Position numbers and translations under genes: made by a program. 64,000 nt of DNA from Microbacterium sp. T32 (lineage in GTDB: Bacteria; Actinomycetota; Actinomycetes; Actinomycetales; Microbacteriaceae): NCBI RefSeq assembly GCF_001619615.1, contig NZ_LQQP01000009.1:1-64000 (forward strand), given 5' to 3'. Shown here piece by piece: positions 2,767 to 58,119 of the stretch. Numbering within the stretch: position 1 is the stretch's first letter; every line of letters starts with the position of its first letter. Under the pieces are notes generated by a model that was not told the DNA's origin, searched no databases, and saw only the letters and a list, made by a program, of their open reading frames with translations.

Positions 2767-2772
2767 TACGAT
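2767..2772 (+). promoter_or_regulatory. -10 element, probable leaderless promoter for the tlyA operon
   Basis: TACGAT ends 7 nt before ATG 2780, so transcription would start at or next to the start codon. No Shine-Dalgarno sequence precedes that ATG. Confidence 0.5.
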
Positions 2773-2779
2773 GGCCTCC

Positions 2780-6352: not shown

Positions 6353-8194
<1,842 letters not shown>

Positions 8195-8195
8195 C

Positions 8196-8774: not shown

Positions 8775-8775
8775 C

Positions 8776-9705: not shown

Positions 9706-9768
9706 GCGTGGGCGGCCCGGAAGGCCGTGCGTACCGCGTGGTCTCCCGGCGGGCGGCGGGCCGGCGAG

Positions 9769-9774
9769 TAGACT
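9769..9774 (+). promoter_or_regulatory. -10 element upstream of parA
   Basis: TAGACT lies 10 nt before ATG 9785, giving a leader of only a few bases. No ribosome site is seen before the ATG. Confidence 0.45.
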
Positions 9775-9784
9775 CGACCCCGTT

Positions 9785-10687
9785 ATGACGAAGGCGGGAG
9801 ACTCGGTGTCGGCGAGCACGAAGGGGACGGCGAACAGCGCGGACGAGGTCATTCTCGGACCCACCGGACGGCCGTATCGCGGATTCCCGACGCCCGCGAA
9901 GCTCGACAGCCACGGGCCCGCGCGCATCATCGCCCTGTGCAACCAGAAGGGCGGCGTCGGTAAGACGACGACCACCATCAACCTCGCGGCTTCGCTCGCG
10001 GGCTACGGCCGCCGCGTGCTCGCCGTGGACTTCGACCCGCAGGGTGCGCTGTCGGCGGGTCTCGGCATCCAGACGCACGACGTCCCGACCATCTACGACC
10101 TGCTGCTCGACACCAAGCGCGACCCGCGCGAGGCGATCGTGCACACGCGCGTCGAGGGCCTCGATCTGATCCCGGCCAACATCGACCTGTCGGCCGCCGA
10201 AGTGCACCTCGTCAACGAGGTCGCGCGCGAGACGATCCTCGCCCGGGTGCTCCGCAAGGTCGCCGCCGACTACGACGTCGTGCTCGTGGACTGCCAGCCG
10301 TCGCTCGGCCTCCTCACCGTCAACGCGCTCACCGCCGCGCATGGCGTGCTGATCCCGCTCGAGTGCGAGTTCTTCGCGCTGCGCGGTGTCGCGCTCCTCA
10401 TCGAGACGATCGACAAGGTCCGTGATCGCCTCAACCCCGCGATCGAACTCGACGGGGTCCTGGCCACGATGTACGACCCGCGCACGCTGCACTCGCGCGA
10501 GGTGCTGGAGCGCGTGGTCGAGGCGTTCGGCGACGACGTCCTCGAAACGGTCATCGGGCGCACGGTGAAGTTCCCGGATGCCTCGGTCTCGGGCATGCCG
10601 ATCACGGAGTTCGCGCCCGAGCACGCCGCCGCGCAGGCCTACATGCGGTTGGCGCGGGAGCTGGTCGCCCGTGGCGCCGTCGCCTGA
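9785..10687 (+). CDS. ParA/Soj family ATPase
   Basis: The 300-residue deviant Walker A ATPase has NQKGGVGKTTTTINLA at about residues 54-69. The DFDPQG and LVDCQPSLG segments are Walker A' and B. Family members bind DNA non-specifically and move chromosomal or other cargo. No parB lies nearby, so this is the second, scpAB-linked ParA of actinobacteria rather than the origin-proximal one. The first 35 residues are a variable extension. The 3' end overlaps scpA by 17 nt. Confidence 0.9.
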   Translation: MTKAGDSVSASTKGTANSADEVILGPTGRPYRGFPTPAKLDSHGPARIIALCNQKGGVGKTTTTINLAASLAGYGRRVLAVDFDPQGALSAGLGIQTHDVPTIYDLLLDTKRDPREAIVHTRVEGLDLIPANIDLSAAEVHLVNEVARETILARVLRKVAADYDVVLVDCQPSLGLLTVNALTAAHGVLIPLECEFFALRGVALLIETIDKVRDRLNPAIELDGVLATMYDPRTLHSREVLERVVEAFGDDVLETVIGRTVKFPDASVSGMPITEFAPEHAAAQAYMRLARELVARGAVA

Positions 10688-19000: not shown

Positions 19001-20857
<1,857 letters not shown>

Positions 20858-25193: not shown

Positions 25194-25868
25194 CTAGGCA
25201 TCGGCTGCCTCCTCGGTGACGGCGACCTTCGTGGTGTTGGTGTTGGTGTTGGTGTTGGTCTTGGTCTTGATGTCGCTGGGCACGGGGTAGCCAGGGATGG
25301 TGATGTCGGAGTCGACCTGATTGCCCCAGACGTGAAACCCGTGGGCGGGGCGACGGGCGAAGAGTTCCAGGTAGGGGCCAGGGCTCAGTCGCTGAATCAT
25401 GACGTGGACCTCCTCCGGCTTATGGGAGTGGTCCTGGCGGGGCAGCATCGTGAACGATCGCTGGCCGCGGAACTTCACCGGCAGCTTGCCCTTCACGCCG
25501 AGCAGCAGCGTTTCGTGGGCGTGGCGGAAGTACTGGCCGAGGCCCATCTGGTCTTTGCCCCAGACGAACTCGTCCTTGAACTCGAACCCCCACTCCCGCA
25601 TCACGTCCTCGGCGACGTAACGCGTAGCCGGGTAGCACCAGAGGTAGAGGTGGGCGTTGTCGGCAGCTAGGGCGCCGATCGGCATCGCTTTGATGCGCTC
25701 GAGGGTCATGAGGGCGTACTTGGAGGCTGCGCCGTACTTCCCTTGCTGACCGGTCGGCCAGGGCGGGTCGACGAGGATCGTCGTGTAGCGCGCCGAGTCG
25801 TCCGGAGGCGTCCCGTCGGAGATGCCGACGTTCTTCAACGGCTCGGCGTTGGTGTTGGTGGTGTGCAT
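25194..25868 (-). CDS. MT-A70 family adenine methyltransferase
   Basis: The 224-residue protein has the catalytic DPPW at residues 34-37. LYLWCYPATRYVAEDVMREWGFEF and the EEVHVMIQRLSPGPYLELFARR block are typical of phage and plasmid MT-A70 N6-adenine methyltransferases. The C-terminal tail contains Lys-Thr and Asn-Thr dipeptide repeats encoded by a short simple repeat at 25231-25262. No partner nuclease is next to it, so it may protect the element from host restriction. Confidence 0.85.
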   Translation of the reverse strand: MHTTNTNAEPLKNVGISDGTPPDDSARYTTILVDPPWPTGQQGKYGAASKYALMTLERIKAMPIGALAADNAHLYLWCYPATRYVAEDVMREWGFEFKDEFVWGKDQMGLGQYFRHAHETLLLGVKGKLPVKFRGQRSFTMLPRQDHSHKPEEVHVMIQRLSPGPYLELFARRPAHGFHVWGNQVDSDITIPGYPVPSDIKTKTNTNTNTNTTKVAVTEEAADA

Positions 25869-38448: not shown

Positions 38449-38946
38449 ATGGTGCAGGGCATCATCATCCCGGCAGATAACACCGCACCCCTCAGAACGA
38501 GCATGTTGGATTCGCTCGAGGACTGCCAGCGGGCCGTCGGCGGCTGGATCGAAGCCGTCGACATCCCCGACCTCGGCGTCACCATGTACGTCAACGATGA
38601 AGGGCTCATTCGCGATCTGCCGTTCAACCGCCGCGCCACGTTCCTGTGGCGGTTCCACGTCCCACAGGCACGCGATGCCCGCCTCGTCGGCGACGTCGCA
38701 GTCGTCGGGCTTACCGACGATGAGGGCGAGAACACGGAGCTACCGATCGAACTTGGGCGCCGACTGGTCGAGCCTGGCGTCTACCGCGTCCGGACTCGCG
38801 AGCATGGCGGTAGCCGATGGCATGAGGAGCCGATCGACCGTGACGATTACCTCGAAACGGTGGTGTGGGCGGCGCTGTTGCAGGAGATGTCACCTGCCCT
38901 GGAGGTGCGGATCGAGCGCGTAGAGGACGAGAGTGACCAACCTTGA
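38449..38946 (+). CDS. DUF3846 family protein, copy 1
   Basis: The 165-residue protein has the DUF3846 pattern: IIIPADNTAPL, then DCQRAVGGWIEAVDIPDLGV, YVNDEGLIRDLPFNRRAT and VGDVAVVGLTDDEGE. AAAGGAGGA precedes ATG 38449. The family is common in phages and plasmids of actinobacteria; function unknown. A paralog sits at 48733. Confidence 0.85.
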   Translation: MVQGIIIPADNTAPLRTSMLDSLEDCQRAVGGWIEAVDIPDLGVTMYVNDEGLIRDLPFNRRATFLWRFHVPQARDARLVGDVAVVGLTDDEGENTELPIELGRRLVEPGVYRVRTREHGGSRWHEEPIDRDDYLETVVWAALLQEMSPALEVRIERVEDESDQP

Positions 38947-40686: not shown

Positions 40687-42105
40687 GATGCGTCGGCGTC
40701 CGTCGAATCGTCTCTGTTGCCGCGACGCATCTTCGACGCGATGGTGCTCGATACTTTGCCCGCGGTGTCCTTCACGTTGTGCGCAAAATCGACGCTCAAG
40801 GACGCGACCGCTTCTGCTCTACTTGCGCCGAGCCTCCCGACCGTCTGAACTCTCGCAGCGCCGGCCTCGACCGCCGCTTCCCGCGCTTCGATGGCCGCGG
40901 TGCCCCAGCGCTTCTTCTTCATGTCCACGCGGCTGTCTGTGATGCCAAGCGTCTCGTGGAAGACCAGCACGTCGGCACCGACCTCGTTGCTGGAACGCAC
41001 GACCTCGCCGGGCTTGAACGGATGGAAGAGCACCTTGTTGCTCGCCGTGACCGCTGCGGCATCCATTCGCGCCAGTAGCCGCTCCGTACTCTTCGCGATC
41101 AGATCACGGCGCTTCGCGCGGCCAGCCTGGATGGCTTCGCGGTGCCGGTCGAGATCGCCTGGGATGGAGTCGAGCATACGGTCGAGCTCTATCACGGCCA
41201 GACCGTCTTGGAGCTGGAAGCAGCGTGCCAGAACGGCCAGCCACTCCTCAACCTCGCGTTCGGCGTACTTCGCGACCTCGGCGATATCGCCGACGGGTGA
41301 CTTCTTCTCCAGCTTCTCGGCCAGAGCATCGAGACGGCGGAGGGCGTAGGACTACGTCTCCGCGATGATCTGTGCGGCACCGTGCAGGCTCGACCACGTC
41401 ACTTCGGAGACACGGCCGACGCGCTCGCGCTTGAGCATGGCGTCGTCGATCGCGAGCCCAACGCCGATCATGCGGGCGAGCGCGCCGTCCTTCTGTGCCC
41501 GCAAGGTGTCGTCGACCTTCTCGTCGATCACAGCCAAGTGATCCGTAATCTCCTGCATGGTCTGCTGCATGGCGAGCTGGGCCATGATGCCCGCGGCGCC
41601 CGCCAGCATCGCCGGGTTGGCGAGCATTGAGCCGACCGTGCCGGGCTTCACAAACTCGAGGATGCTCGATCTTGCCCTTGCTCGTGGTCACGATGGCCCG
41701 GCTGACGCTGTCCGACGAGCCCTTCATTGCGTTCCCGAGCTTGAGCGCCTTGGCCGACTCTTCAGTGAGTTTCACCCAGCGACCGGCGCTCGCGGCGACC
41801 TCGGATCCGCCCTTCGCTGCCGCGGAGCGACGTTGTCGGCTGATGTTCTCGTACTGCTCCGGCGACATCGGGATCGGCGGGCAGCAGTAGCCGCAGTGGG
41901 TGGCGCGAGATCCCGACATGCTCCAGCGGTGCGCGTCGCAGGCCGGACGCATCTCCTTGTACTTCGCCTGATCGGCGTCATACTCAACCTTTTGCTCCGG
42001 TATGAGGTACATTGTGCCTGGCCAGTTGCCGAGGGTGTCGATCACGGGTAGCCCCCAGCCTCGACATGGCTCGTCGGCCACTGCCTGCTCGTGGGTCAAA
42101 TACAT
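40683..42105 (-). pseudogene. Broken gene, about 473 codons, one frameshift and one amber
   Basis: The first part (from ATG 42105, MYLTHEQAVADEP) reads to about 41670. It contains CDAHRWSMSGSRATHCGYCC, a possible zinc site. The frame then changes at GAG-C-ATC (41651-41672) into EFVKPGTVGSMLANP. At 41352-41354 a TAG interrupts ...IIAET*SYALRRLDALAEK, after which the same frame runs to the stop at 40683. Removing one base and reading the TAG through gives a continuous protein, so this is a decayed single gene. No family recognised. Confidence 0.8.
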
Positions 42106-43308: not shown

Positions 43309-44472
43309 ATGAGCACCACCACCTTCGTTCCCGCGCGCCTCAAGATGGCGCGTGCCATTCGCCAGATGACCGCGACCGCTCTCGCGGCTGAAGCCGGTAC
43401 TACTCCGCCGTGGGTGTCGCAGTCCGAGCGCAGCAAAGAAACGCCCAGCCCAGAGCTGATCCGTGAGTTCGCACGCGTCCTCAACTTCCCGGTCGACTTC
43501 TTCTACCGGCCGCTTGAGCAGCTGCCGCCCTCGGATGCCTTCCACTTCCGAGCAACGTCGCGACTCGCCAAGAAGGACGAGGACACCGCGCGGGCGCTGT
43601 CAGCTCTCGCCATGGAGCTTTCGGACTGGATCGAAGACACCTACCGAGCGCCCGACCCAGCGGTGCCCGAGCTGCAGGACCTCATCGGTTCAGACGACGA
43701 GGTCGCACCCGAGCAGGCTGCGGAAGCCCTTCGCGGCGCCTGGGGGCTCGGCGTGGCACCGATCAAAAACCTTCTGCGGCTGCTCGAGTCCAAGGGCGCG
43801 AAGATTTACTCGGCCGGAGGGCCGCTGCAAGCCATCGACGCCTTCTCGTTCCGCCATGGAGCGACGCCGGTCATCTTCCTCAACGTTCATAAGTCCGCCG
43901 AGCGACTGCGCTTCGACCTCGCCCACGAGCTCGGGCACCTCGTCATGCATGGTGGGTCACTGCACATCGAGCCCGGCAAGGAGAAGGAGCTTGCGGCGAA
44001 TGACTTCGCCAGCTCGTTCCTCATGCCGCGCTCGGACGTGTTGGGATCCATCCGCGGCAACTTGATGCTCGAGGACGTTCTCGTTCTCAAGCGGCGTTGG
44101 CGTGTCAGCGCGATGGCCCTCAATCTGCGTGCTCATCGCCTGGGCGTGATTTCGGAGTGGACCTATAGCACGCTTGCGAGGCAGCTTTCGATGGCTGGTT
44201 TCCGCCGCGGTGAGCCAGGATCCGATCTGCGGGTCGAGTCCTCGAGTCTGCTCACTCAGGTCATGAGCGACATGCGCGCGCGCGGAGAAGGATTCTCCGA
44301 CATCGCGCGCGCCCTGAACGTGCGAGCGCAGGACGTCCAGGACCTCATGCTGGGCATCGTGACCTTCGCCATTCAGGGCGACGGCGCCGTGCGCTCGAGG
44401 AGCACGGCCGATCTCCGTGATGCTTCCCTGGCGCCGGTGGCCGACCTGAATGCCCGGCGCGGCTCGAGCTAG
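43309..44472 (+). CDS. XRE-ImmA/IrrE metallopeptidase
   Basis: The 387-residue protein has an N-terminal Cro/C1-like HTH (about 8-62, KMARAIRQMTATALAAEAG). An ImmA/IrrE peptidase domain has the zinc motif HELGH at about 206-210, followed by the helical Glu region KEKELAANDFASSFLMP. Family members cleave phage or element repressors or stress regulators. Its 3' end touches the divergent GIY-YIG remnant. Confidence 0.88.
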   Translation: MSTTTFVPARLKMARAIRQMTATALAAEAGTTPPWVSQSERSKETPSPELIREFARVLNFPVDFFYRPLEQLPPSDAFHFRATSRLAKKDEDTARALSALAMELSDWIEDTYRAPDPAVPELQDLIGSDDEVAPEQAAEALRGAWGLGVAPIKNLLRLLESKGAKIYSAGGPLQAIDAFSFRHGATPVIFLNVHKSAERLRFDLAHELGHLVMHGGSLHIEPGKEKELAANDFASSFLMPRSDVLGSIRGNLMLEDVLVLKRRWRVSAMALNLRAHRLGVISEWTYSTLARQLSMAGFRRGEPGSDLRVESSSLLTQVMSDMRARGEGFSDIARALNVRAQDVQDLMLGIVTFAIQGDGAVRSRSTADLRDASLAPVADLNARRGSS

Positions 44473-45278
44473 TTCCGATTGAGCCCGTGGCGTCGGCTGT
44501 CGAGCGCGTCCTTGAAGTGGCTTTCCGCGATGTCGATGTCCCGCGTTGATGTGGACGGATCGAAAACACGCAGCAGAGTGAAGCGGAAGTTCTTGGGCTC
44601 AACGCGGCGCAGTTCGACGGTGCCGCCGAGCCCGTTGGTCGCGTAGCCGTTCCAGCGCTGTCGAATACCCTCGGCGCCGTCTGCCTTGCCGACGTAATGC
44701 CGGCCGTCCGAGGTGTCGGTGATGAGGTAGACGCCGACGACAGGCGAGAGCGCAGTGCGCCACGAGGCGTAGCGATGCTCGCGCATCACCGCCTGAGGCT
44801 GTACATGGCTTAGGACGAGGCGATCGAAGCCGGGGAACGGAATCGGCTCCGTCTGCAATGCCGATCACGGGATAGCTCGCCGTCGTGCTCGCGTTCATCC
44901 GCCAGGTGCGTAGCGACCTCCACCCATCACGAGCCGCTTGCGAAGGTCTGCCATGTGATTGGACTCGACGACGTCGAAGGTACGCCGGATGTCGTCGTAG
45001 GCGATCTGGCCGCGGTTCTCCACCACGGACCAGAACCGCGCCTGGTCTCCGCCCTCCTTGATGAACACCACCCAGAACCGTGGCGGCACTGCGGGAAACC
45101 GTCGCGTGTCCGAGGATCGCGTCGCGGTGTAGGGCAACATCTCGGCGTCGGTGGAGTCCGCGTGCAGTCCCTGTAGCCCGCTCTCCTCTGGGTCGGTCAC
45201 GAAGGCGTGGCGGATGACAAGCGCCTGTGCGGGGTCGATGCCAGCGTCGATGAGGAGCGGGCCGAGAGTCAAAGCCAT
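44469..45278 (-). pseudogene. GIY-YIG nuclease with two compensating frameshifts
   Basis: The N-terminal part (LLIDAGIDPAQALVIRHAF to DLRKRLVMG) and the C-terminal GIY-YIG part (VVGVYLITDTSDGRHYVGKADGAEGI) lie in the same frame. Between them two TGA codons occur. The missing middle (RTWRMNASTTASYPVIGIA) is read in another frame from about 44920 to 44850. This means one base was lost and one gained. The intact family is a well-spread GIY-YIG protein of about 270 residues. Confidence 0.75.
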
Positions 45279-45323: not shown

Positions 45324-46064
45324 CTACTGTTTCGCGGCGAGCTGCCCGCGCATGATCTCGACGATGTTGTCGCGGTAGCGCGGCTTTACGCGGTGGCGAG
45401 TTCCTGCCGTCATCTCTTTGACGAGCTTCTCGATCGTTTCGGCGTGATGGAAGCTGCCGCCGACCGCGAAGTAGGCGCGTAGCCCGGAGTCGGGATCGAC
45501 GGGGTACCCCTCGGCGGCGAAGGCCCGAATAAGCTGGACGACGGCGTCCTTGCCGCGGCCGGAGCTGAGGCCGGTGTAGTCCTCATTGTGGATCATCTCA
45601 GCCGCAGCGAGCAGGAGCGGATCGCTCAGCGGGACCGACTCGCCGGGGTGAAGATTAAGCGCGCCGAGGCCATCGAGCCAGGTGCGCACCAGGTCATATC
45701 GCGACCAGATGAGTACGAAGAGCCTGCCGGTCGAGTCGGCCTCGACCGCACGACGAATGGTCTCAAGCTCACGTTGCTCGTACGGGTGCAGCACGACGAC
45801 CGCGTGGTCGATGACCTCGTCTTCGCGCTCCAGGCTGCCGAGCTCGCGGATGTTGAAGACGATCCGATCCGCCTTCTCGGGTGCGATGAACTCGGCGGCT
45901 TCGACGTCGGCGCCGCGGTCGTCGTGGTTGAACTTCTTCACGTCGGTGACTGCAAAGAGATACGGCGGATCGCCGATCCAGTCTCGGATCACGGCGCTCT
46001 GCGGAATCATTGCGGTGCCGTGCTGTCCCCAGTCTTCGCGCACCATGTAAGCAAGCTCAGTCAC
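45324..46064 (-). CDS. Hypothetical protein, operon partner of the HEPN-motif protein
   Basis: The 246-residue protein starts at GTG 46064. Alpha/beta pattern: FVLIWSRYDLVRTWLDGL and LRAYFAVGGSFHHAETIEKLVKEM. The C-terminal half may be a helical recognition domain. It follows the large gene at 46115 after 50 nt on the same strand. No family recognised. Confidence 0.6.
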   Translation of the reverse strand: MTELAYMVREDWGQHGTAMIPQSAVIRDWIGDPPYLFAVTDVKKFNHDDRGADVEAAEFIAPEKADRIVFNIRELGSLEREDEVIDHAVVVLHPYEQRELETIRRAVEADSTGRLFVLIWSRYDLVRTWLDGLGALNLHPGESVPLSDPLLLAAAEMIHNEDYTGLSSGRGKDAVVQLIRAFAAEGYPVDPDSGLRAYFAVGGSFHHAETIEKLVKEMTAGTRHRVKPRYRDNIVEIMRGQLAAKQ

Positions 46065-46114: not shown

Positions 46115-48028
46115 TTAGGGCAGCGGCCAGCCCTCGGCTGCAATGCGCTCACGCCAATATGTCGCGGCGTCCTTCCCGGACTTCAGAGCGATGAACTCAT
46201 CGGTCCTTTTAGCAAGTGCTGTCTGCGGATCGGTCACGTCGACGAACGATTCCAGAGCGATGTAGAGCGCCGTGCCGCCAAGGAACTCGGCGTAGTCGCG
46301 CGCCGATTGCACTACTGCGAACGTGGCCGGATTGCCGTGGACGAGGGCATTGCGGATTCGCCGGCGACGGGCCTCGAGCACCTCGCCTTCTGCCTCGTGC
46401 TCAGCAATCAGGGCGCTGTAGGTCGCGTGATCGCTGATGCTCGCAAACATGCGCTCGATCCAGGCGCGTTCGTGTTCGAGTCGGCAGAGCGAGATGAAGT
46501 CGCGCGCCCGATCTGCCAAGAGAAGAATCCAGGGCTGCTTTGGACGGCTAGACATCCACTCGACAGTCAACTCATGCTGCAGGTCACGGTCTTCTCCGCC
46601 GCCCAGCAAGCACATCCCCGCTGCCCGCTGGAGATCGCCGAGCCACCGGGCTTGCGCCCACCGCTCACCAAGCAGGGGGAAGAGCGTATTCGGATCCATC
46701 GCGGCATGCGCAGCCACGTGCTGAACGACCCGGTCGGAGAGCGGGATGACACTGCTGATGTCCGCTTCGGAGGGCTTACGGAGCGCCATGTCCCGGCTGA
46801 AGGGGTGATCCAGCGTGGTCTGCACTTCAATCGCAGCCGCCAAGAACCGCGGAAGCTCTTCGCGCGCCAGAGCATCGGCGATCCGTGGGCCGTGCTCTTC
46901 GATCGCGTCCGACGTCATGCCTGCGCCATAGGTGTCGTCAGGGAATCCCGTGTGATCCCAGACCGCGCGAAGGCCGGAGCCGGCAGGGACTCCGGAGAGC
47001 ACGACAACATGCTCCGCAAGCTGGGGGCGAATCCCACCTGATCGGTGCAGCGCCACGTTGAAGATCACCTCGACGATTGCTATGGCTCGTTCGACGGCGC
47101 CGGCCGCAGTGGTGTTGCCCAGGTCGACGCGGATGAGCGTTTCGACGTGGCGCTTCTCGTCCATTTTCTCTGGAACGCGGAAGGTGTAGCCGCCCTTCAC
47201 GATTTCCCAGAGCTCTTCCTTGTGCTCGAAGTCTTGCCGACCCGGCTCGGCGTTCGGCACCGCCCAGAGTGGCTCGTAGAACGACACGTGTCCGGCGGTG
47301 AGCTGCACGTGCGCGCGCCCTTTGTAACCAAGCCAGACGGCCACCGGTTCGATCGTCGCTGGCGTCGCGATGAACGTGCGCGCCGCGTCGACCCGATCAG
47401 CGAGTACGATTGTGGCCTCGCCAATGAGGTTGTCGTCCGCGTCACGGCCGAACGCCATGATCGACACGAGCCCACGAAATGCCGAGTCAGGTTCCACGCC
47501 TCTGCGTCGTATTTGCTCGAACAGCAGGTCGGCGATGGGCGCGTACTCGCGATGGTGGAGCGTCCGGTCCTGGGCTACGTCGACCAGGTCGTCCCAGCTC
47601 GCGCGCACGGCATCGTCCGACTCCAGCGCCGTGAGGAGGTCTCGTGCCGCACCGAGCAGTGCGTGCCACTCAAGGGCGACGCGGGTGGCGCCTGGTGGCT
47701 CGGACAAGACCGCATTACCACTCGCGGACAGCGCAGCGAACGCGGCGCGGAACGCTGCCAATTCGGAAGCGACGTGGGTGCTGAGATGCGTCCCCATGCT
47801 CGCGACGGACTGTGCGATGTCTCGGTCGAGCGAGTCGCGGTTTGCGCCCTTCCTCCAGGCATCGACACCACTCGCCAGCTCAATCCACTGCACGATTTCC
47901 TCCGCCACCACGGTGAGTGGAAGCACGGTCGAGAACGTATGGCGGCGGTCGAGCGAGGACACCAGCGACTTGAGCCAGTCCGGAGTGTTCTCCGGCCAGT
48001 CGTCTCGGACGTTGTAGTCGATCATCAT
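46115..48028 (-). CDS. Large protein with C-terminal HEPN-like motif
   Basis: The 637-residue soluble protein has a mostly helical N-terminal region (1-170). A mixed domain with WLGYKGRAHVQLTAGHVSFY lies around 205-250. A helical C-terminal part holds RNALVH at 559-564 (R-x4-H). That is the catalytic spacing of HEPN ribonucleases, within IRNALVHGNPATF. GAGG lies before ATG 48028. This architecture is seen in poorly known anti-phage effectors; RNase activity is inference. Confidence 0.65.
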   Translation of the reverse strand: MMIDYNVRDDWPENTPDWLKSLVSSLDRRHTFSTVLPLTVVAEEIVQWIELASGVDAWRKGANRDSLDRDIAQSVASMGTHLSTHVASELAAFRAAFAALSASGNAVLSEPPGATRVALEWHALLGAARDLLTALESDDAVRASWDDLVDVAQDRTLHHREYAPIADLLFEQIRRRGVEPDSAFRGLVSIMAFGRDADDNLIGEATIVLADRVDAARTFIATPATIEPVAVWLGYKGRAHVQLTAGHVSFYEPLWAVPNAEPGRQDFEHKEELWEIVKGGYTFRVPEKMDEKRHVETLIRVDLGNTTAAGAVERAIAIVEVIFNVALHRSGGIRPQLAEHVVVLSGVPAGSGLRAVWDHTGFPDDTYGAGMTSDAIEEHGPRIADALAREELPRFLAAAIEVQTTLDHPFSRDMALRKPSEADISSVIPLSDRVVQHVAAHAAMDPNTLFPLLGERWAQARWLGDLQRAAGMCLLGGGEDRDLQHELTVEWMSSRPKQPWILLLADRARDFISLCRLEHERAWIERMFASISDHATYSALIAEHEAEGEVLEARRRRIRNALVHGNPATFAVVQSARDYAEFLGGTALYIALESFVDVTDPQTALAKRTDEFIALKSGKDAATYWRERIAAEGWPLP

Positions 48029-48269
48029 CGGTGACCTCGGGAGCAGTTCGGGATCGGGTGGAGTTTCGTCATGTCTGTCTAGCACTATGACCGAACTCGT
48101 CCGCGACGAGAACAGCCCACGCGTTGTGCTTTTCACAACGAGCGCGACCGGCGCATTGACGTCGCGATTCTGTTCGTCATACTCAGCAGTCCTCCTCGCC
48201 GGGATGCGGCTTCACCAAGAGGAACCCATGCGGGGTTCGTCGGCCGCGTCCGATGACGAGGCCCACTCG
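48029..48269. other. 241-nt intergenic stretch
   Basis: No gene is supported. It is the divergent gap between the HEPN-motif gene and a degraded plus-strand gene. A weak TTGTG/CACAA hairpin lies near 48124-48138. Confidence 0.4.
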
Positions 48270-48582: not shown

Positions 48583-48732
48583 GCGACGCGTGCTGCCTTG
48601 AGTTTCGGGCTGTCCGAGCTCCCTGAGAGCGGCAAGCGCACCTACCCCTCGTTGGTGCTCAGCGGCTCTCAGCGGAACCATCAGGTTCCCGGCCGCCCGC
48701 ATCAAGGAGGACCGGATAGCTTAGGCCTGTTC

Positions 48733-49230
48733 GTGCCTGTCGACGACGCGGCACCGATCGAGCCGCGTGAGTTCGCACAGCTCCACGACTACCAGAGCGC
48801 GGTCGGCGGTTGGATCGAGCCGGTCGACATTCCGTCGCTCGGCGTGTCTATCTACATCAATGAGGTGGGTCTGATTCGGCAGCTGCCACTCAACCCTCGC
48901 GCCACGTTCCTGTGGTGGTTCCACGTTCCGGCGGCTCGCCAGAAGGCGCTGCTCGTCGGTGACGCCGTGATCGTCGGGATACCGAATCGGCGAGGCGACA
49001 GCACCGATGTGCCGGAGACGGTTCTCGACCTGACGTCATCCGGCCGACGCCGGCGCGTCGAGTACCTGACCGAGTCCGATGCACGTTGGCGACAAGGTGA
49101 TGTTGGGCACGACGACGTTCGGGAAGCGATCGTCTGGGGAATGGTGCTCCTCGAGCGCTCGCCGAAGGTGAAGAACGTCCGGCTCGCTCCGTTCACGGCG
49201 ACCGCCACCAATGCCATCTCGTCCGACTGA
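48733..49230 (+). CDS. DUF3846 family protein, copy 2, initiator altered
   Basis: About 165 residues, clearly paralogous to copy 1: YQSAVGGWIEPVDIPSLGV, YINEVGLIRQLPLNPRAT and WWFHVPAARQKALLVGDAVIVG. The conserved leader with AAGGAGGA is kept at 48704-48711, but the ATG of copy 1 has no counterpart. The nearest usable start is GTG 48733, about 21 nt from the ribosome site. Expression may be weak or lost. Confidence 0.75.
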   Translation: MPVDDAAPIEPREFAQLHDYQSAVGGWIEPVDIPSLGVSIYINEVGLIRQLPLNPRATFLWWFHVPAARQKALLVGDAVIVGIPNRRGDSTDVPETVLDLTSSGRRRRVEYLTESDARWRQGDVGHDDVREAIVWGMVLLERSPKVKNVRLAPFTATATNAISSD

Positions 49231-49270: not shown

Positions 49271-49604
49271 TCACGTTCCGAGCCGCTGCCGCCCGTACTT
49301 CTTAGAGGTCAGATGCCAACCGCCGCAGTCGGGGCATCGGTAGGCGCGAGATTCCGTCTTGGCGCGATGTGACCCGTACTTGTGTTCCGCCCAGGCTAGG
49401 GCGAGGAGTGCAGCGACCGAGCGTGGTAGCGAACCTTCTGGCACCTGGGCATAGCAAGATACTTTCCGCGACCTCGGACACCGAGCATGCCGACGCGGCT
49501 CCGTGGGATGACTCAGCGCGCCGTTTCTGGGTTCCTCGCACGACCTCAAGGTGAGTTTCTGAGACACATACCATTCGCGAAAAGCCCTGGTCATGGTATA
49601 AGTA
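49271..49604 (-). CDS. Small zinc-ribbon protein
   Basis: The C-terminus [15 protein letters not shown] (about residues 89-103) is a CxxC...H zinc-binding motif of small element proteins. It is preceded by a helix [19 protein letters not shown]. The N-terminal extent is uncertain: ATG 49604 is the longest sensible start, and no ribosome site is seen. Probably a short remnant or micro-gene. Confidence 0.4.
49574..49601 (+). promoter_or_regulatory. Candidate promoter of the type III restriction operon
   Basis: TTCGCG, a 17-bp spacer, then TATAAG (49596-49601), the most AT-rich -10 in this area. It gives a leader of about 145 nt before ATG 49755, with a weak GGGCAC/GTGCCC hairpin inside it. Confidence 0.4.
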
Positions 49605-49754
49605 AGGAGACCGCACCCGAGGTCTCGCTGCTTTCCTGTGGCGCCTCGAACGGCCCCGTCTCCGTTCGGAAGTCGGGGCACGCCGATATCGTTTAGGTGC
49701 CCGTTCGCTTCACTACTAATCCGCGCATTGCCGCGCGAAGGAGACCTCACCCGT

Positions 49755-51806
49755 ATGGCCAAATCACTACTCGAGCAACTGCCCAGCATCGTCGCTGCAG
49801 GCAAGCGACAGGCGGCGCAGATCCTCGAGCAGCTGGAGGGCCAGAACAAGGTCAGTCTGCAAACCCGGGAGCTCGTGATCCCGTCCAAGGACAGGGCCGG
49901 GTTCAACCTCTGGGGCTCCCGCGCAGACGAGGAGACGACGACCGCTCCGAACCGGCTCATCTACGGCGACAACCTCCTCGCGATTGCGGCTCTGCTCGCC
50001 GGCGACGACGTCACTCCGAGCATGCGGGGCAAGGTTGATCTGATCTACATCGACCCTCCGTTCGATTCGAAGGCCGACTACCGCACGAAGATCACTCTTC
50101 CGGGCGTGACACTCGACCAGAAGCCAACGGTGCTGGAGCAGTTCGCTTATTCAGACACTTGGTCCGACGGCACCGCCTCTTACCTTGCGATGATCGCGTC
50201 GCGGCTCGTCCTCATGCGTGAGCTCCTCTCCGACGTTGGGGCGATCTACGTGCATCTCGACTACCACGTCGCGCACTACGTCAAGATCCTGCTCGACGAG
50301 GTGTTCGGCAAGGGCAACTTCCAGAACGAGGTGGTGTGGAAGCGGAAGGGCGGCTCCGCGCTGAGCACGATGAGCAAGATGTCGGTCAATACCGACACGA
50401 TCTTCCACTACTCAAAGACTGACAACTACATCTTCAACAAGGTCTACATGGACCCCGACCCGGAGTATGTCGAGCAGATGTTCCGGCACGAGGACGAGGA
50501 TGGTCGCCGGTTCATGCTCAACGTCTGCAGCAGTCCGACCTATCGCCAGAACCTGATCTACGACTACAAGGGCTACAAGACGCCACCAAATGGTTGGCGC
50601 TACTCACGCCCCAAGATGGAGGAGCTGGACGCAGCCGGCCTCCTCTACTTCCCCGAGGATAAGAAGAAGCAGATCTATAGGAAGGTGTACCTCGACACCT
50701 ACCCTGGTCAGCTCGTCACGAACCTCTGGACCGACATTTCGCTTCTCAAAGGGCGAAATGCCGAGATCGTCAACTATGCGACGCAGAAGCCTGAGGCGCT
50801 CCTCAATCGCATCATCAAGCTGTCGAGCAACGAAGACTCGATTGTCGCGGACTTCTTCGTGGGGTCCGGCACCACGGCGGCGGCGGCCGAGAAGCTTGGT
50901 CGGCGATGGGTCGTGAGCGACCTCGGCAAGCCATCCACGATGATCACCCGCAAGCGCCTGATCGACCAGGAGGCCAAGCCGTTCCTCTACCAAGCCATCG
51001 GCGACTACCAAGTCGAGCAGGCTCGGTCGACTCTCGGTCGCAGCTTCCGCGTCGGCGACCTCTCGCGGGTCGTTCTCGATGTCTACGGAGCGCTACCGCT
51101 CCCTCCCGAAGAAAACGTCAACGGGAGCCTCGGCCGCCTGCCGGGAACGCGAACACTCGTCATGGTCGACAGTCCCGCGCGTCTCACGACCACGTCGACC
51201 CTCCGGCGAGCGCAGAGCTTCCGCGAAGTAAAGATGGGCGGTTTCGACAAAGTCATCGTGCTCGGGTGGAACTTCGCCGCCGGCATCGGTCAGGACATCT
51301 CCGACCTCAACGATGACAAGCTCGAAGTCCTGGTCATCCCACCAGACCTTCTCGACCGTCTCAAGAAGAAGGGCGCCGACAAGCTTGCGTCGGAGGTGCG
51401 ATTCTCGAGTCTCCAGTACCTGCAGGCAGATGTCGTGGCTCGCACTCGAGACGCCACGGGCGAATCGCTTGGGGTCACGCTGCAGAACTACGTTCTGCTT
51501 TCTCCTGATGCGATCAATCTCGACGAGAAGAACCGCGCGGCGCTGCAGAACGTTATGAACAACGAGCCGCTCGCGCTCATCGAGTATTGGGCCGTTGATC
51601 CCGACTACGACGGTGAGGTCTTCCGCTCGGTCTGGCAGGACTACCGCGGAAACACCGATAACGACGAGGACCCGCTGCGCGTTGTCACGACCGCCACGCT
51701 TGACCTCGGACGCAAGGAGGGCGCACGTACGATCTGCATCCGTGCCGTCGACGTCTTCGGTTTCGAGTCAGAGGTAGTCATCCGCGACGTCGAGGTGTCG
51801 GCATGA
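49755..51806 (+). CDS. Type III restriction-modification methyltransferase (Mod)
   Basis: The 683-residue N6-adenine methyltransferase is of the beta class. Motif IV DPPF lies at residues 100-103 ([12 protein letters not shown]) and comes before the SAM motif FVGSGTT (about 366-372). The stretch between, with [12 protein letters not shown] and ATQKPEALL, holds the target-recognition domain. The C-terminal ~250 residues should bind Res. AAGGAG lies upstream of ATG 49755. Intact, full length; it overlaps res by 4 nt (ATGA). Confidence 0.93.
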
Positions 51807-54733
51807 GTGGCTTCGCTGACTTCCCGCTCGCCAAGGGGCTAAGTACCCTTCTCGGTCCTCAGATCCCGGATCTGATTGGAGGGCTCGGCGCACCGCTGCT
51901 CGAAGAAGTTACGCCGGTCACAGCTGAGCTCCTGCGCTTCTGGTTCGAGCAGGACTACTGCGACACCCGCTTCCTGAACTTTCACGAGGGCCAGCGCCAG
52001 GCGATCCTCAACATCATCTACGCGCACGAGGTACTGAAGACAACACGACTGCGCGATCTCTACGACGCCGTCGCTGGGGACTACCTGCTCCAGGGCGGTG
52101 TCCTCGGTGAGGTGACGCGCCAGCGCCACGACTATCCGAAGTACGCCGCCAAGATGGCGACCGGAACGGGCAAGACCTGGGTGCTGAACGCCCTCATGCT
52201 CTGGCAGCACCTGAACAACGCCGCCAACCCAAGTGACCCGCGCTTCTCGAGCAACTTCCTTCTCGTGGCGCCCGGCCTCATCGTCTACGAGCGCCTGCTC
52301 GACTCCTTCATGGGCAAGGAGCACGCCGGCGAACGGGACTTCTCCACCAGCGACATCTACTCGCAGCGTGACCTCTTCGTTCCGGAGAACTACCGCACGA
52401 AGGTCTTTGCCTTCCTCCAGTCCTCGGTCGTGACGAAGACGGAGATCGGGCGCAAGGTCACGGGCTCGGGGCTCATCGCCATTACCAACTGGCACCTGCT
52501 CGCCGGGCAGGAAGATCCGGACTTCCTCCACGACGAGGACGAGATTGACGCACCGGGCGCAGAGATCAGTGCGAAGGACGCGGTGCAGAGCATCTTCCCG
52601 CTCACGCCAGGCACGTCGGCTGGAAACGCACTCGACACCCTTGATCGCCGGTTCGCACGCGGCGGCCCGCTCGAAGCGCTGAAGGATCTGCCGAGCCTGG
52701 TCGTCTTCAACGACGAGGCACACCACATTCACGAGGTCAAGAAGTCCGAAGAGGTCACCGACGTCGAGTGGCAGAAGAGCCTGACGGAGATTGCTTCCAC
52801 CAAGGGCGCCCGCTTCATGCAGTTCGACTTCTCGGCGACGCCCTATAACGAGGTGGGCTCGGGCCGGAACAAGAACAAGGCCTACTTCCCGCACATCGTC
52901 GTCGACTTTGATTTGACCTCCGCCATGAAGGCCGGTCTCGTGAAGGCACTGGCACTCGACAAGCGGAAGGAGGTCGCCGCCCTCCCGCTCGACTTCCGCG
53001 CCGAGCGTGATGAACAGAACGCGGTCACAGGTCTATCGAACGGTCAACGCGTCATGCTGCGCGCCGGCCTCAAGAAGCTGCAGATCCTCGAGGACAAGTT
53101 CAAAGACGCCGACCCGGACAAGCACCCGAAGCTACTCGTGATTTGTGAGGACACGACCGTGTCTCCGCACGTCGAGGAGTTCCTGAGGACGGCCGGGCTC
53201 TCCGAGGACGACATCCTCCGTGTGGACTCGGGCCGCAAGTCTGAGCTCGGCGCCAAAGACTGGGAGCCGGTCCGCGAGAAGCTTTTCGACGTCGACAAGC
53301 ACGCGCAGCCGAAGGTCATTGTTTCCGTCCTGATGCTCCGCGAGGGCTTCGACGTCAGCAATATCTGCGTCATCGTCCCGCTGCGGTCTTCGCAGGCTTC
53401 GATCTTGCTCGAGCAGACCATCGGTCGCGGTCTCCGTCTCATGTGGCGCGGCAACGATGCTATTGACGAGCTGAAGGCTGAAACGCGTGAGCGTATGGCC
53501 AAGCGCATGGAGCCGACCAACTACTTCGACGTGCTCTTCGTCGTCGAGCACCCGGCCTTCTCGAACTTCTACGAAGAGTTACTCAACGGCGGACTGGCCG
53601 TCGAGGTCGGCGACGAGGACGAGAAGAACACCTCCGCTACGGGTGACCTTGAATTCGTCGACCTTCGCCCGGGCTATCAGGCATACGACTTCGAGATCCC
53701 GATTATTATCCGCGACGCCGACGAGGAGCTGCGAGAGCCGAGCATCAACCCGCTGGAGCTGCCAGTAAGCCGCTTCCCACTCGACCTCATCCTGAAGCAG
53801 GTCGGCAAGGGTGACCGATTCGTCTCCGAAGACCAACAGACCGGCACCCAGTTCGGCGACTACCGCGTCGACGGAGGCGTGCTGACAGCGACCGGCTACA
53901 ACGACTACCTCTCGCGGATGACCACGCGCGTCACCGAGGCGCTTGGTCGCAACATGACGACTTCGGCGAAGAAGTACCGCGAGATCAGTCAGTTCCCGAT
54001 TCTCCAGTCGTACCGACCGCTCCTTCTCGGCTGGATCGATACCTACATCCGCAAGCGCATGTTCGGTGCTGCCTTCGACCCGCTCGAAGGCGAGAACTGG
54101 CGCGTTCTTATGCTGGACGATGTCGCCCACGAGCTGGCCGGCACTTTCGCCACCATGCTCGTCGAGCTGCAGGAGAACCAAGAGGTCGACTCCGCGGTCG
54201 TGCAGTACCGGAAGCTCTCTGACGTCGCGACGATCCCCGTGCGAGCCAGCTCGGCCGCCGACGTCAACAAGTGCATCTACGAGCGCCTGCCGATCCCAAC
54301 GAAGGCCGGCGGCCTCGAGCGCACGTTCATCCACTGGGCCGACGGTGACACTGCCATTGAGGCGCTCGCCAAAGTGCACGAATACCGCCACGACTTCCTG
54401 CGACGTCCGTACTTGAAGGCGGACGGCATGCCTGCGCAGTACTCGCCGGACTTCCTTGTACGCACCGGCGACGACATTTACGTCGTCGAGACGAAGGCGC
54501 AGTCTGCGCTGAGCGATGAAAACGTCAAGCGCAAGCAGCGGGCGGCGCTCGCCTGGTGCGAGCAGATCAACGAGCTGCCCGAAGATCAGCGCGATGGCCG
54601 CCTGTGGCACTATGTCCTACTCGGCGAGACGATCGTGAAGGACTGGAAGAAGAAGAACGCTCGGGCGAGCGAGTTGCTCGATTACGCGCGTCTCCGTCGT
54701 TCGAGCACGGCGCGGCAGGAGAAGCTCCTGTGA
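51803..54733 (+). CDS. Type III restriction enzyme subunit (Res)
   Basis: The 976-residue SF2 helicase-nuclease has Walker A MATGTGKT (about 117-124) and DEAH in [11 protein letters not shown] (about 301-311). Motif [15 protein letters not shown] lies near 535-547. The C-terminal PD-(D/E)xK endonuclease has [19 protein letters not shown] (about 883-901). All key residues are present, so the enzyme should be active with Mod. It overlaps the next gene by 4 nt (GTGA). Confidence 0.93.
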
Positions 54734-57705
54734 ACTCGACGGCGGATCCTCGCGGTTCCATCTGGAGACGATGGGATCCGCACATTCATGCGCCCGGCAC
54801 GGCGCTGAATAATCAGTTTGGTGCGGACGACTGGGATGAGTACCTCACGCTCATCGAGAACTCCGAGCCGCGCATCGAGGCGCTCGGTGTCACGGATTAC
54901 TACAGCATCGCCGACTACGAGAAGGTCGTCGCGTACAAAGTCGCGGGTCGCCTAGCAGACGTCGGACTCGTGTTTGCCAACGTCGAGATGCGCCTTCCGA
55001 CGGCCACCGCAACGAACCCGGTCAACATCCACCTCCTTATCTCGCCGGAAGATCCCGATCACGTCGAGGAGGCCAAGCGCTTCCTCAATACGCTGACCTT
55101 TCAGTACGGCTCGGAGACGTACGCCTGCAACCCGGCAGACCTGATACGGCTTGGAAAGAAGTCCGACCCCAAGATCGTCGACAACGGGGCTGCGCTGAGC
55201 GTCGGCTCGAACCTGTTCAAGGTGACGATGGAGAACTTGAAGAAGTCGTTCTCCGAGAGCGCCTGGGCGCAGCAACATATCATCGTCGCGGTCGCCGGCA
55301 GTTCTACTGACGGAACCTCCGGCGTTCGCGATGACGGTGCGTCTCTTGCTGCAGTGCGGACTGAGATCGAGCGAGTCGCTCGGGTCATATTCGCCAGTTC
55401 GCCGAAGCAGCGAAGCTTTTGGATCGGCGATGGTGTCGAATCAGTCGACAAGCTCAACGAGAAGTACGACGGCGTAAAGGTGTGCCTCCACGGGAGCGAC
55501 GCACATGGCCTCGCCGCTGTCGGCAAGCCAGCCGAGAATCGCTACTCGTGGATCAAGGGCGATGCGACGTTTGAGTCACTTCGTCAGGCGTGCCTCGAGC
55601 CTCGTGAGCGCGCCATCGTCGCCGACACACCGCCGTCAGGCGCACTACCGCATCGTGTCATTCAGGAGATCTCGGTCAGCGGCGCTCCCTGGTTCAGTAA
55701 CGGTAGCGTTCCCCTGTCGTCCGGACTTGTCGCGATCATCGGAGCCCGTGGCTCTGGAAAGACGGCCCTGGCAGACCTCATCGCGGCGGGTGCGGGCGCC
55801 GCAAGCGACGACGCGACCGACAAGACCTTCTTGCAGCGAGCGAAGCGTCACGTCCAAGGTGCCGCTGTCGAGCTGACTTGGGCGGACCGTCGCACGACTT
55901 ACGCCGCGCTCCCTCCCGTTGTTGATCCTGACGAGACTCCCGCCGTCCAGTACCTCTCCCAGCAGTTCGTTGAGAGGCTGTGCTCGTCAGAAGGCATCAC
56001 CGATGAGCTACTCGACGAGATAGAGCGCGTCATCTTCGAGGCGCACCCATACGAGGACCGCCTTGGCGCCTCTACCTTCCGGGAACTTCTCGACATCCGG
56101 GCCAACCATGGCCGCGGACTGCGCGCCTATGCGAAACAGGAGATCGACGACCTTTCGGATGAGATCGACACTGAGCGCGCGACCTTGGACCAGCTCCCTG
56201 CTCTCAGGGTCGAGCAGGCGCAACTCACCAAGCTGTTGACAGAGGACAAGGGTGCGCGCAGCAAGCTCGTTATCGTCGGCGGCGAAGCTCGCTCACAGCG
56301 ACTCGACGAGATCAACGCGGAACTCGCGTCCCGACAGGCGGCAATCGATGGGCTTCGTCGCCGCGAGCAGGCGCTGGGAGAACTTCGCTCAACCACTCTT
56401 GACCTGCGCGATCGCCGTCTGCCTGGCGTCACCGCCAACCTGGAGCGAACACATGAGGCCGCCGGCCTCAGCGCTGAAGAGTGGAAGGTCTTCGCAATTA
56501 CCTTCGCGGGGGATCCCGTGGCGACCATCGATGTCAGGTTGGCGGCGGCCAAGACTGCCATTGCCGCTCACACGGGAGAGATGCCAGCACGACCAGACGT
56601 GCCGCCGGTTGAGATGCCAGCGTTCGTCGCCGATGACGCGGATCTGTCGAAGGAGTCGTTGAACGTACTCCGGACAGAAGCGTGGCGATTGGGTCAGCTC
56701 ATCGGTCTGGATAGTGCGAAGCAGAAGCAACTGGAGGCGCTGAACACGCGCATCTCGCGAAACGAGTCCCTCCTCACTGCGGCCGACAAGAAGATTACGA
56801 ATGCCGAGGGTGCGAGCGACCGCATGAAGGCGCTCCAACTCAAGCGAAAGCAGGCCTACGCATCCCTGTTCGATGGCTTCGCCTCGGAGCAAGATCAGCT
56901 GACCGAGATGTACTCGCCGCTCAAGGAGATGCTCGAGACGGAGCTCGGTACGCTCGGAAAGCTGAGCTTCAGTGTTCGTCGCCTCGTCGATGTCGAGGCG
57001 TGGGCAGCGCAGGGCGAGAGCCTGCTAGATCTACGCATGGGTGAGTTCCGCGGCCGCGGGGAGTTGCTGCGCGTCGCGACCGAGACGTTACTCCCAGCGT
57101 GGGAGAACGGCGCGAGCAACGAAGTCGCTGAGGCAATGAACACGTTCCGCGCCGATCACGACCAGCACCTCATGGCGCAGGCGAGAGTCCCGCGCACCGA
57201 TGCCAAGGCGTACTGGGCGTGGGGCAAAGAGGTCTCTGCCTGGCTGAACAGCACCGAGCACATCACCGTGAGCTACGGCGTGCAGTATGACGGCGTCGAC
57301 ATCGAACAGCTCTCACCGGGTACGCGCGGCATTGTTCTGCTCCTGCTCTACCTGGCGATCGATCAAAGCGACGATCGACCGCTAATTATTGATCAGCCGG
57401 AAGAGAACCTGGACCCGAAGTCGATATTCGACGAGCTCGTCGGCCGCTTCGTGGAGACGCGTCGTCGTCGCCAGATCATCATCGTTACCCACAACGCGAA
57501 CCTCGTTGTGAACACCGACGCTGACCAGGTAATCATCGCAGGCGCGGGAGCGCACGTTCCCGGTGGCCTTCCCACCCTCTCGTACCTCAGCGGCGGACTT
57601 GAGAATCCGAAGGTGCGCGACGAGGTGTGCGAGATCCTCGAGGGCGGCAAGCCTGCATTCGAGGAACGTGCGAAGCGACTGCGAATTCGTCTCGCGCAGA
57701 GGTAG
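54730..57705 (+). CDS. TrlF-like PHP-SMC ATPase
   Basis: The 991-residue protein opens with a PHP-type metal site (DPHIH at 16-20; HGSDAH near 255-260). An SMC/RecF-type ATPase follows, with Walker A IGARGSGKT (about 336-344). A long coiled coil spans about 465-750, the signature-like LSPGTRGIVLL is near 870, and Walker B is IIDQPEENLD (about 886-895). GTG 54730 is fixed by the GTGA overlap. PHP-SMC fusions are found in defence islands; here it is the third gene of a type III R-M operon. DNA-damage-type nuclease or phosphoesterase activity is inference. Confidence 0.88.
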   Translation: MNSTADPRGSIWRRWDPHIHAPGTALNNQFGADDWDEYLTLIENSEPRIEALGVTDYYSIADYEKVVAYKVAGRLADVGLVFANVEMRLPTATATNPVNIHLLISPEDPDHVEEAKRFLNTLTFQYGSETYACNPADLIRLGKKSDPKIVDNGAALSVGSNLFKVTMENLKKSFSESAWAQQHIIVAVAGSSTDGTSGVRDDGASLAAVRTEIERVARVIFASSPKQRSFWIGDGVESVDKLNEKYDGVKVCLHGSDAHGLAAVGKPAENRYSWIKGDATFESLRQACLEPRERAIVADTPPSGALPHRVIQEISVSGAPWFSNGSVPLSSGLVAIIGARGSGKTALADLIAAGAGAASDDATDKTFLQRAKRHVQGAAVELTWADRRTTYAALPPVVDPDETPAVQYLSQQFVERLCSSEGITDELLDEIERVIFEAHPYEDRLGASTFRELLDIRANHGRGLRAYAKQEIDDLSDEIDTERATLDQLPALRVEQAQLTKLLTEDKGARSKLVIVGGEARSQRLDEINAELASRQAAIDGLRRREQALGELRSTTLDLRDRRLPGVTANLERTHEAAGLSAEEWKVFAITFAGDPVATIDVRLAAAKTAIAAHTGEMPARPDVPPVEMPAFVADDADLSKESLNVLRTEAWRLGQLIGLDSAKQKQLEALNTRISRNESLLTAADKKITNAEGASDRMKALQLKRKQAYASLFDGFASEQDQLTEMYSPLKEMLETELGTLGKLSFSVRRLVDVEAWAAQGESLLDLRMGEFRGRGELLRVATETLLPAWENGASNEVAEAMNTFRADHDQHLMAQARVPRTDAKAYWAWGKEVSAWLNSTEHITVSYGVQYDGVDIEQLSPGTRGIVLLLLYLAIDQSDDRPLIIDQPEENLDPKSIFDELVGRFVETRRRRQIIIVTHNANLVVNTDADQVIIAGAGAHVPGGLPTLSYLSGGLENPKVRDEVCEILEGGKPAFEERAKRLRIRLAQR

Positions 57706-57780: not shown

Positions 57781-58119
57781 TCATTTTCGCCCACCTGCCG
57801 GCGCTCGTAGTTCGACCCCAACCTTGATGATGGCGACGCGCATCGTTTCCTGGTTCACCTTCATCTGCTCCGCTACTTCGGACAAAGAGAAGCCAGATCC
57901 GTAAAGCCGCTTGGCTTCTTTCACTTGCTTGGCGGTCAGCGGCTGGCGTCGAACCACGACGCCGTTCTCGCGCAAGATCCGGAGGATGGTCGACTTCGCG
58001 ACCTTGAAGTCTCCGGCGAGCGCCGTAGAAGTCGCACCGCTCGAGTAGAGCCGCACCACCTCAACTTGTTCAGATGCGGAGAGTCGAGTCCATGGCCGCG
58101 TCCTACAGTTTGCGGCGAC
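57781..58119 (-). pseudogene. Recombinase DNA-binding-domain remnant
   Basis: About 110 residues: RPWTRLSASEQVEVVRLYSS, then two helix-turn-helix repeats (STALAGDFKVAKSTILRIL and SLSEVAEQMKVNQETMRVA). This is the C-terminal tail of resolvase/invertase-type recombinases without the catalytic domain. GTG 58059 is the first normal start, but homologous sequence reaches upstream to about 58119, so the 5' end is probably truncated. It sits at the right side of the element. Confidence 0.6.

Follow-up and report, generated by a model that had tools for sequence, protein, structure and literature searches.

A type III-like restriction-modification operon of Microbacterium with TrlF as its third gene, possibly recruited as a second strike on cut DNA

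A type III-like restriction-modification (R-M) operon in Microbacterium sp. T32 carries as its third gene trlF, which codes for a TrlF-family protein with a predicted PHP domain and an ABC-type ATPase. The operon lies in a stretch of 64,000 nucleotides of contig NZ_LQQP01000009.1, all of which was analysed and which we call the window. Our preferred reading, held with somewhat less than even confidence, is that a type III-like operon here recruited trlF as a self-contained gene. Comparison with a Microbacterium relative shows that trlF stayed in place while the neighbouring restriction cassette was exchanged at the same island. R-M systems with an accessory effector are an already known kind, of which TrlF as third gene is a new variant. 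The operon consists of the following features:

49755..51806, + strand: Mod, beta-class N6_N4 DNA methyltransferase of a type III-like R-M system, 683 aa (Pfam PF01555, 130 bits)
51803..54733, + strand: Res, SF2 helicase with a C-terminal TnsA-like PD-(D/E)XK nuclease, 976 aa, ATGA overlap with Mod
54730..57705, + strand: TrlF-family protein, PHP plus ABC-type ATPase, 991 aa, GTG start, GTGA overlap with Res (NF045780, 639 bits)
54730..55629, + strand: PHP domain of TrlF, about residues 1-300, from predicted fold and profile search
55660..57684, + strand: ABC/Rad50-like ATPase of TrlF, comprising a Walker A half, a long mostly helical insert, and a signature and Walker B half

All three frames are open and each overlaps the next by 4 bases, ATGA between Mod and Res and GTGA between Res and TrlF, so that the three coupled genes placed at 49755-57705 by the preliminary description were confirmed exactly, coordinates and overlaps alike. 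Mod scored 243 bits against the PADLOC MTase_III model, and its best solved relative by sequence match is the Mod subunit of EcoP15I. Motif IV (DPPF from residue 100) precedes motif I (DFFVGSGT, 366-373), which is the beta-class order, and the assigned start is backed by L093, a related copy with a 70% identical Res, in which the Mod N-terminus is identical over 13 residues. By domains and motifs, Res combines the SF2 helicase motor and PD-(D/E)XK nuclease expected of a type III enzyme (ResIII, 40.8 bits; PF08722, 29.9 bits). It fell short of the NCBIfam full-length Res models, the best giving 209 of 800 bits, and phmmer returned no match to it in the PDB at E 0.01. Its relatives are 53-65% identical on plasmids, 70% in one genome of the phylum (G527) and 75.6% over 586 residues in a metagenome assembly (L003). 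Type III enzymes require two inverted asymmetric sites and cut about 25-27 bases away. The window operon shares with EcoP15I-like systems the Mod-Res order, the beta-class methylase and the SF2 helicase with nuclease, and differs from them by the TnsA-like (PF08722) nuclease of Res and the added third gene.

TrlF matched NCBIfam NF045780 at 639.4 bits against a cut-off of 350, with residues 8-984 covering model positions 1-943 of 944. The window protein is thus a full-length member of this family that is set apart by its overlapping type III Res gene. The open-access literature searched held no experimental function for TrlF and no account of TrlF with R-M. A Pfam scan found only PF13304 and PF02463 and did not detect a PHP domain, and we therefore tested the PHP fold by separate profile and structure searches. 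A profile of 18 TrlF N-termini retrieved PHP proteins from the PDB, the best being TM0559 (E 4.9e-7). An AlphaFold2 model of residues 1-323, built from 18 sequences, had a mean pLDDT of 85, and in VIA-align it matched PsfC (Z 13.2, rmsd 3.6, 200 residues), EndoQ (Z 12.4, rmsd 3.9, 215 residues) and RNase AM (Z 12.4, rmsd 3.8, 215 residues). Bacterial replicative polymerases carry PHP domains, and the 28 best rows of the alignment (Z 13.2 to 9.3) were PHP phosphoesterases, EndoQ, RNase AM and such polymerases; below them (Z <=6.8), further PHP proteins were mixed with amidohydrolases. The top Foldseek matches of the model were also PHP enzymes. On these models the N-terminus of TrlF has a predicted PHP fold.

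The motifs read along TrlF are DPHIH, TDY, NVEMR, SDAH, GARGSGKT, LSPG, LIIDQPE and THN. The preliminary description had credited all three genes with complete catalytic motifs, a statement that needs qualifying for the PHP domain. There, HxH, E86, H101, D257 and H259 are present, Tyr57 occupies the position of the TDH histidine of other members (for example L056, L037 and L043), and the histidine of the TM0559 'AHP' stretch has no counterpart in the TrlF profile. If the canonical assignment of metal-binding histidines applies, as we assume, two usual PHP ligands are, judging from these alignments, missing from the window protein. Because Tyr57 replaces the TDH histidine and the AHP histidine is absent, the PHP domain may have a weakened active site or one with altered tuning. 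The ATPase half carries Walker A, signature, Walker B and H-loop and matched Pfam AAA_21 at 46.7 bits. A profile of nine TrlF ATPases gave weak matches in the PDB to Rad50 (E 1.4e-4) and AriA (E 2.9e-3), and phmmer with the window TrlF gave none at E 0.01. The full-length AlphaFold2 model was poor (pLDDT 41), with long helices visible in the ATPase part.

The same two-part plan, PHP plus SMC-like NTPase, is found in Ppl. The ATPase half of the window TrlF matched the Ppl model NF042955 at 107 bits, far from its cut-off of 1000, which places it outside that family. A review (PMC12904381) describes Ppl of E. coli as a single-gene system, unlike the operon-borne TrlF of the window; it is a 3'-5' single-stranded DNA exonuclease with PHP and NTPase domains, triggered by nucleotide depletion together with 3'-OH ends made by phage homing endonucleases, and gated by NTPs bound to both domains. 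The Ppl precedent bears on how the operon might work. Mod would mark host DNA, and Res would translocate or slide and cut unmarked invading DNA. The ATPase half of TrlF would then read the Res-made ends, which would be of the kind that triggers Ppl, or else the ATP/nucleotide state of infection, and would release the PHP nuclease to chew the cut DNA. A repairable restriction cut would thereby become final, and the gene overlaps would keep TrlF co-produced with Res. By analogy with Ppl, then, ends made by Res may license TrlF to destroy the cut DNA, a proposal that we put at a little under an even chance. Five lines of evidence may, with similarly tentative weight, be taken in its support, namely the recurrent operon link, the cassette exchange, the PHP fold near DNA and RNA nucleases, the ATPase nearest to Rad50 and AriA, and the Ppl precedent. 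What counts against it is the altered PHP site, the score below the Ppl cut-off, the viral-contig TrlFs with no type III Mod or Res close by, and the related Mod-Res pairs that do without TrlF.

The cassette exchange was seen in L001, an uncultured Microbacterium that is syntenic with the window chromosome up to the same tRNA-Pro. The features around the operon are as follows:

19001..19077, + strand: tRNA-Pro (ARAGORN), left edge of a genomic island; Microbacterium synteny breaks just after the same tRNA
46115..48136, - strand: left-flank gene, 673 aa, intact in the window; the homologous ORF in the L001 island is shortened
49568..49607, + strand: element upstream of Mod, inverted repeat ATACCAT-18-ATGGTAT then AAGTAAGG
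57781..58059, - strand: flanking gene with a resolvase-type HTH (Pfam HTH_7; nucleotide match to L001 13001-13447, 70%)

A pattern scan of species genomes found three close TrlFs, in L001 (88% identity), L002 (75%) and L003 (72%). L001 and the window have in common parts of the left flank, TrlF and a related HTH gene after TrlF. Between these flanks L001 carries an SNF2 helicase, a different Mod and a different Res, followed by TrlF. The two Mods are about 30% identical over part of their length; the L001 Res has a PF19778 nuclease, unlike the window Res, in which the Pfam scan did not find that domain, and resembles the latter mainly around one helicase motif. Nucleotide identity (81%) begins 3 bases before the TrlF start codon. 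In L003, an assembly in which the TrlF start is not placeable, the frames of Res and TrlF have 82 bases in common. L003 has both the Res and the TrlF of the window, at similar levels of identity, and the window arrangement is therefore probably the older one. In L002, Mod-Res is absent from the 10 kb upstream and 1.7 kb downstream of TrlF. As a separate observation, the L001 SNF2 helicase (2104-4992) scored 570 bits against the DISARM DrmD model (cut-off 950), though its operon is type III-like.

What is known of R-M accessory genes concerns chiefly guards that belong with a single R-M type. A review (PMC12707154) counts PrrC and PARIS among the guardians of R-M and mentions additional accessory genes. 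TrlF resembles these systems in that, according to that review, ABC-ATPase genes are linked to R-M operons (PrrC) or answer anti-restriction (PARIS). It differs from PrrC, RloC and PARIS in that PHP replaces the anticodon nuclease or TOPRIM effector and in that its family spans several R-M types. The Pfam scan showed no anticodon-nuclease domain like that of PrrC and RloC, and the N-terminus is predicted to be PHP; likeness to AriA of PARIS is confined to the ATPase, and the partners are Mod and Res, not an AriB TOPRIM protein. TrlF could nevertheless be a guardian by the logic of PrrC or PARIS, silenced by working R-M and fired into growth arrest when a phage blocks it. The AriA-like ATPase agrees with this, R-M operons are known to carry such guards (PMC12707154), and a PrrC-type coupling would account for strict co-expression. 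Against it, TrlFs that are 88% identical pair with two Mod-Res sets sharing about 30% identity in parts of Mod and little beyond the Res helicase motif, which leaves little room for a specific contact. The cassette exchange thus speaks against a guard that depends on contact with its own R-M enzyme. TrlF also often occurs without Mod-Res, and neither a PrrC-like nor a TOPRIM effector domain came up in the Pfam scan. We consider a guardian role unlikely. End-licensed TrlF, by comparison, would respond to a generic product (DNA ends, nucleotides) instead of touching Res, so that it could exist by itself or pass from one restriction system to another; this proposal assumes that TrlF and the exchanged cassettes still function together.

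The same comparisons bear on selection. In support of selection on the operon, the preliminary description had cited decay of its neighbours between 40 and 49 kb. Of the ORFs compared there with relatives, one is broken (41251-42105, frame-broken relative to its homologue) and at least four are intact, so that an intact operon among decayed neighbours offers no argument; for ORFs 44472-44858, 44898-45278 and 45327-46064, matches of 87-93% identity extend along almost the entire length. Selection is instead seen in TrlF itself, whose dN/dS was 0.06 (0.062) against L001, 0.10 against L002 and 0.08 against L003. The ratios are rough because synonymous divergence is high (dS 1.1, 1.9 and 2.5, respectively). 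The window and L001 TrlFs differ mostly at silent sites, and these substitution patterns directly show purifying selection on TrlF.

We then evaluated how often TrlF and R-M genes occur together in the phylum. A sample of 396 genomes gave a TrlF match at E 1e-60 or better in 17, and over the family cut-off in 14; the surroundings of 15 over-cut-off loci, window included, were read. Four matches below the cut-off (L048-L051) were left out of these loci and of the tree described below; two of them adjoin histidine-kinase-like ATPase genes. TrlF lay in a same-operon type III system in 4/15 loci, as Mod-Res-TrlF in the window and L043, TrlF-Mod-Res in L037 and Mod-TrlF-Res in L038. The genes share a strand, the gaps between them run from -4 to 92 bases, and in one case TrlF stands between Mod and Res; on gene arrangement, the grouping amounts to operon structure and more than vicinity. 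A DNA methylase stood in the same gene run as TrlF in eight loci, the type III cases included. The loci without a same-operon type III system were as follows:

L035: TrlF gene run with an Eco57I-type methylase
L040: TrlF gene run with a DUF1156 methylase, with DUF499 and SNF2-like genes also there
L046: TrlF gene run with an MmeI-type methylase
L047: HsdM, an ORF in the HsdS place without a Pfam match, HsdR, then TrlF
L042: Res on the opposite strand, at a contig end
L039 and L041: AlbA_2 gene adjoining TrlF; L039 also with an SNF2/NOV_C helicase
L022: TrlF on a short contig
L036, L044 and L045: no R-M gene recognised among the TrlF neighbours scanned

The AlbA_2 genes of L039 and L041 and the SNF2-like and DUF1156/DUF499 genes of L040 make up a further recurrent TrlF neighbourhood. 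With 47 matches of the methylase family in about 41.5 Mb (14 genomes), 0.12 loci would be expected by chance within 3.5 kb against the 4 seen (P ~8e-6), under a model that ignores the clustering of defence genes. When the window, our starting case, is removed, 3 were seen against about 0.11 expected, a figure scaled by hand. In the class, a close TrlF is rare: at E 1e-60 it was present in 2/394 genomes, that of the window among them. A separate family-level search gave TrlF matches in 5/299 genomes, including a contig edge (G041) that holds the end of an 87% identical TrlF, its upstream side falling outside the contig, and three other matches that were weak or partial. In a tree of TrlFs, from which L005 was left out as its TrlF is in pieces, the type III label on 11 of 34 rows (2 of them convergent and not same-operon, 3 chosen through Res) needs 8 changes. 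Label shuffles were as low as 8 in 78 of 500 cases (mean 9.6), a rough test given long branches and chosen rows, by which the label appears scattered over the tree and not significantly clustered.

Pairing of TrlF with Mod-Res is not peculiar to this lineage, as the preliminary description had allowed it might be, since it is found in other families of the phylum (L037, L038, L043) and on alphaproteobacterial plasmids (L055, L056). A window-type Res of 53-65% identity over at least 80% of the query was found in 13 plasmid records, all of which were opened; two more records with that coverage were only 26% identical, and a phage collection gave 7 records, none covering 80%. TrlF directly follows Res in 4 of the 13 (NZ_CP005192, AB244976, AP026900, NC_015582), the first two carrying the same TrlF. 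The TrlFs in the type III operons L055 and L056 are very divergent; against the window TrlF, with one BLAST segment kept per pair, the best segment of the alphaproteobacterial plasmid protein covers the last ~130 residues at 37%, while the family model scores it at 502 bits. From so short a best segment together with that score, we infer a separate recruitment beside Mod-Res, or a very old one. Recurrence in other lineages, three gene orders and divergent TrlFs together support, at the level of gene comparison, a functional link between TrlF and type III R-M. The triplet sought by the preliminary description therefore recurs, in varying order. Its idea of an added effector or anti-escape layer gains support from the recurrent TrlF-R-M link, so that TrlF as an added layer on R-M is backed by comparative evidence, whereas one fixed three-gene system is not.

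The remaining plasmid records include Mod-Res without TrlF (L053 and its copy L096, L054 and its near copy L095, and L057), Mod-Res sets broken up by insertion elements (L059, L094), a split Res (L060) and a McrB-like ATPase filling the third slot after Mod-Res (L058). In a Novosphingobium PP1Y plasmid (L068, 2159-9802), unannotated in its record, Mod lies in two frames and Res runs into TrlF. We rejected a Res-TrlF fusion there (one frame, 4055-9802), since the fusion sits at a homopolymer run and Mod is split in the same record, making a sequencing indel likely.

TrlF and Mod-Res are also found apart. Type III Mod or Res genes, the only type sought, were seen near 0/17 TrlFs of viral contigs in the DNA around each, several loci being incomplete; TrlF does not, on this count, need this kind of Res. 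A same-strand type III neighbour was absent in 14 of 15 plasmid regions opened from TrlF matches, a hand-picked and non-random set whose fifteenth member (L068) was opened because Res had already been found there. Of these 14 regions, L064 contains SNF2, methylase and helicase genes as a convergent set, and L065 contains a DUF1156 cluster. The order in L064 is the same as in L001. In L061 an annotated restriction endonuclease lies 32 bases upstream of TrlF, and on an archaeal plasmid TrlF lies among DUF1156, DUF262, DUF499 and SNF2 genes, to which the gene set of L040 in the phylum sample is similar. Conversely, related intact Mod-Res pairs without TrlF occur in L053, L054, L057 and L093. G527, the only other genome among the 396 with a close Res, has Mod-Res without TrlF, and at E 1e-80 the window Res was found in its own genome only among the 394 of the class. 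Given that both genes occur without the other, neither Mod-Res nor TrlF is, by gene content, dependent on its partner, and TrlF gives the impression of a self-standing module that restriction operons have recruited. A fixed three-gene system is not supported, in view of TrlF without Mod-Res, Mod-Res without TrlF, and the L001 TrlF with a different Mod-Res.

Such independence would also be expected if two unconnected defences shared one transcript, TrlF having its own trigger and the R-M operon offering a good landing place with addiction-like maintenance. Besides the solitary occurrence of each, this is favoured by the joining of TrlF to R-M of types I, II and III and to DUF1156 systems, and by the McrB-like ATPase gene in the same third slot. 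Repeated tight joining, with 4-base overlaps or gaps below 10 bases in the window, L037, L038 and L056 (the gap in L043 being wider, 92 bases), and TrlF between Mod and Res in L038, exceed what a shared neighbourhood would give, and we regard this explanation as somewhat unlikely. A role in control or repair, in which TrlF processes ends or limits Res damage to the host, for example at unmethylated new sites, would suit a Rad50-like ATPase joined to a PHP domain like those of DNA polymerases and EndoQ, and one related TrlF bears an automatic double-strand-break-repair term. Phage-like and plasmid elements carry TrlF in the absence of a type III system, as is more readily expected of defence than of housekeeping, and Mod-Res persists without TrlF; we hold such a role to be very unlikely.

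A broader form of the proposal in which cut ends license TrlF, on the doubtful side in our estimate, is that TrlF is a universal DNA-end-licensed PHP-ABC effector that delivers a second strike for type I, II, III and DUF1156 operons and is unadapted to their proteins, so that R-M loci would swap the cutter and keep the effector. Here the restriction genes change beside an accessory protein that remains the same, and members of its family accompany R-M systems of many classes, which suggests TrlF, a probable nuclease, as a general second strike against invading DNA. If one TrlF enhances several unrelated restriction enzymes, many bacteria would restrict DNA in two steps, and the trlF genes found alone on plasmids would be the same effector with other triggers.

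The island also offers a candidate control region. The 30-base core of the upstream element occurs once in the window and was absent from 100 shuffles at up to 3 mismatches; 38 bases of the element, 89% identical, also stand upstream of the different cassette in L001 (core pattern at 1864-1880). Scanning this region for sigma-70 promoters gave no candidate site; the conserved element is itself a probable promoter or operator of the operon. Since a related gene adjoins TrlF in L001, the HTH gene at 57781-58059 may be a regulator acting on the shared inverted repeat. It scored 48 bits against the Cbp1 repeat-binding model (cut-off 140). The 673-aa left-flank protein had no match in Pfam, PADLOC or NCBIfam at E 0.001, and a search for an exact repeat of the tRNA of at least 14 bases, as an att mark of the right end, found none. 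The ~22 kb right after tRNA-Pro (19170-41475) are absent at the same place in a syntenic Microbacterium genome, where the shared island genes begin about 0.5 kb after the tRNA, and we infer an extra insertion or tandem element. Elsewhere in the island are an MT-A70-type adenine methylase gene (25194-25868), far from the Mod-Res operon, and two DUF3846 genes (38449-38946 and 48598-49230), the latter just upstream of the operon.
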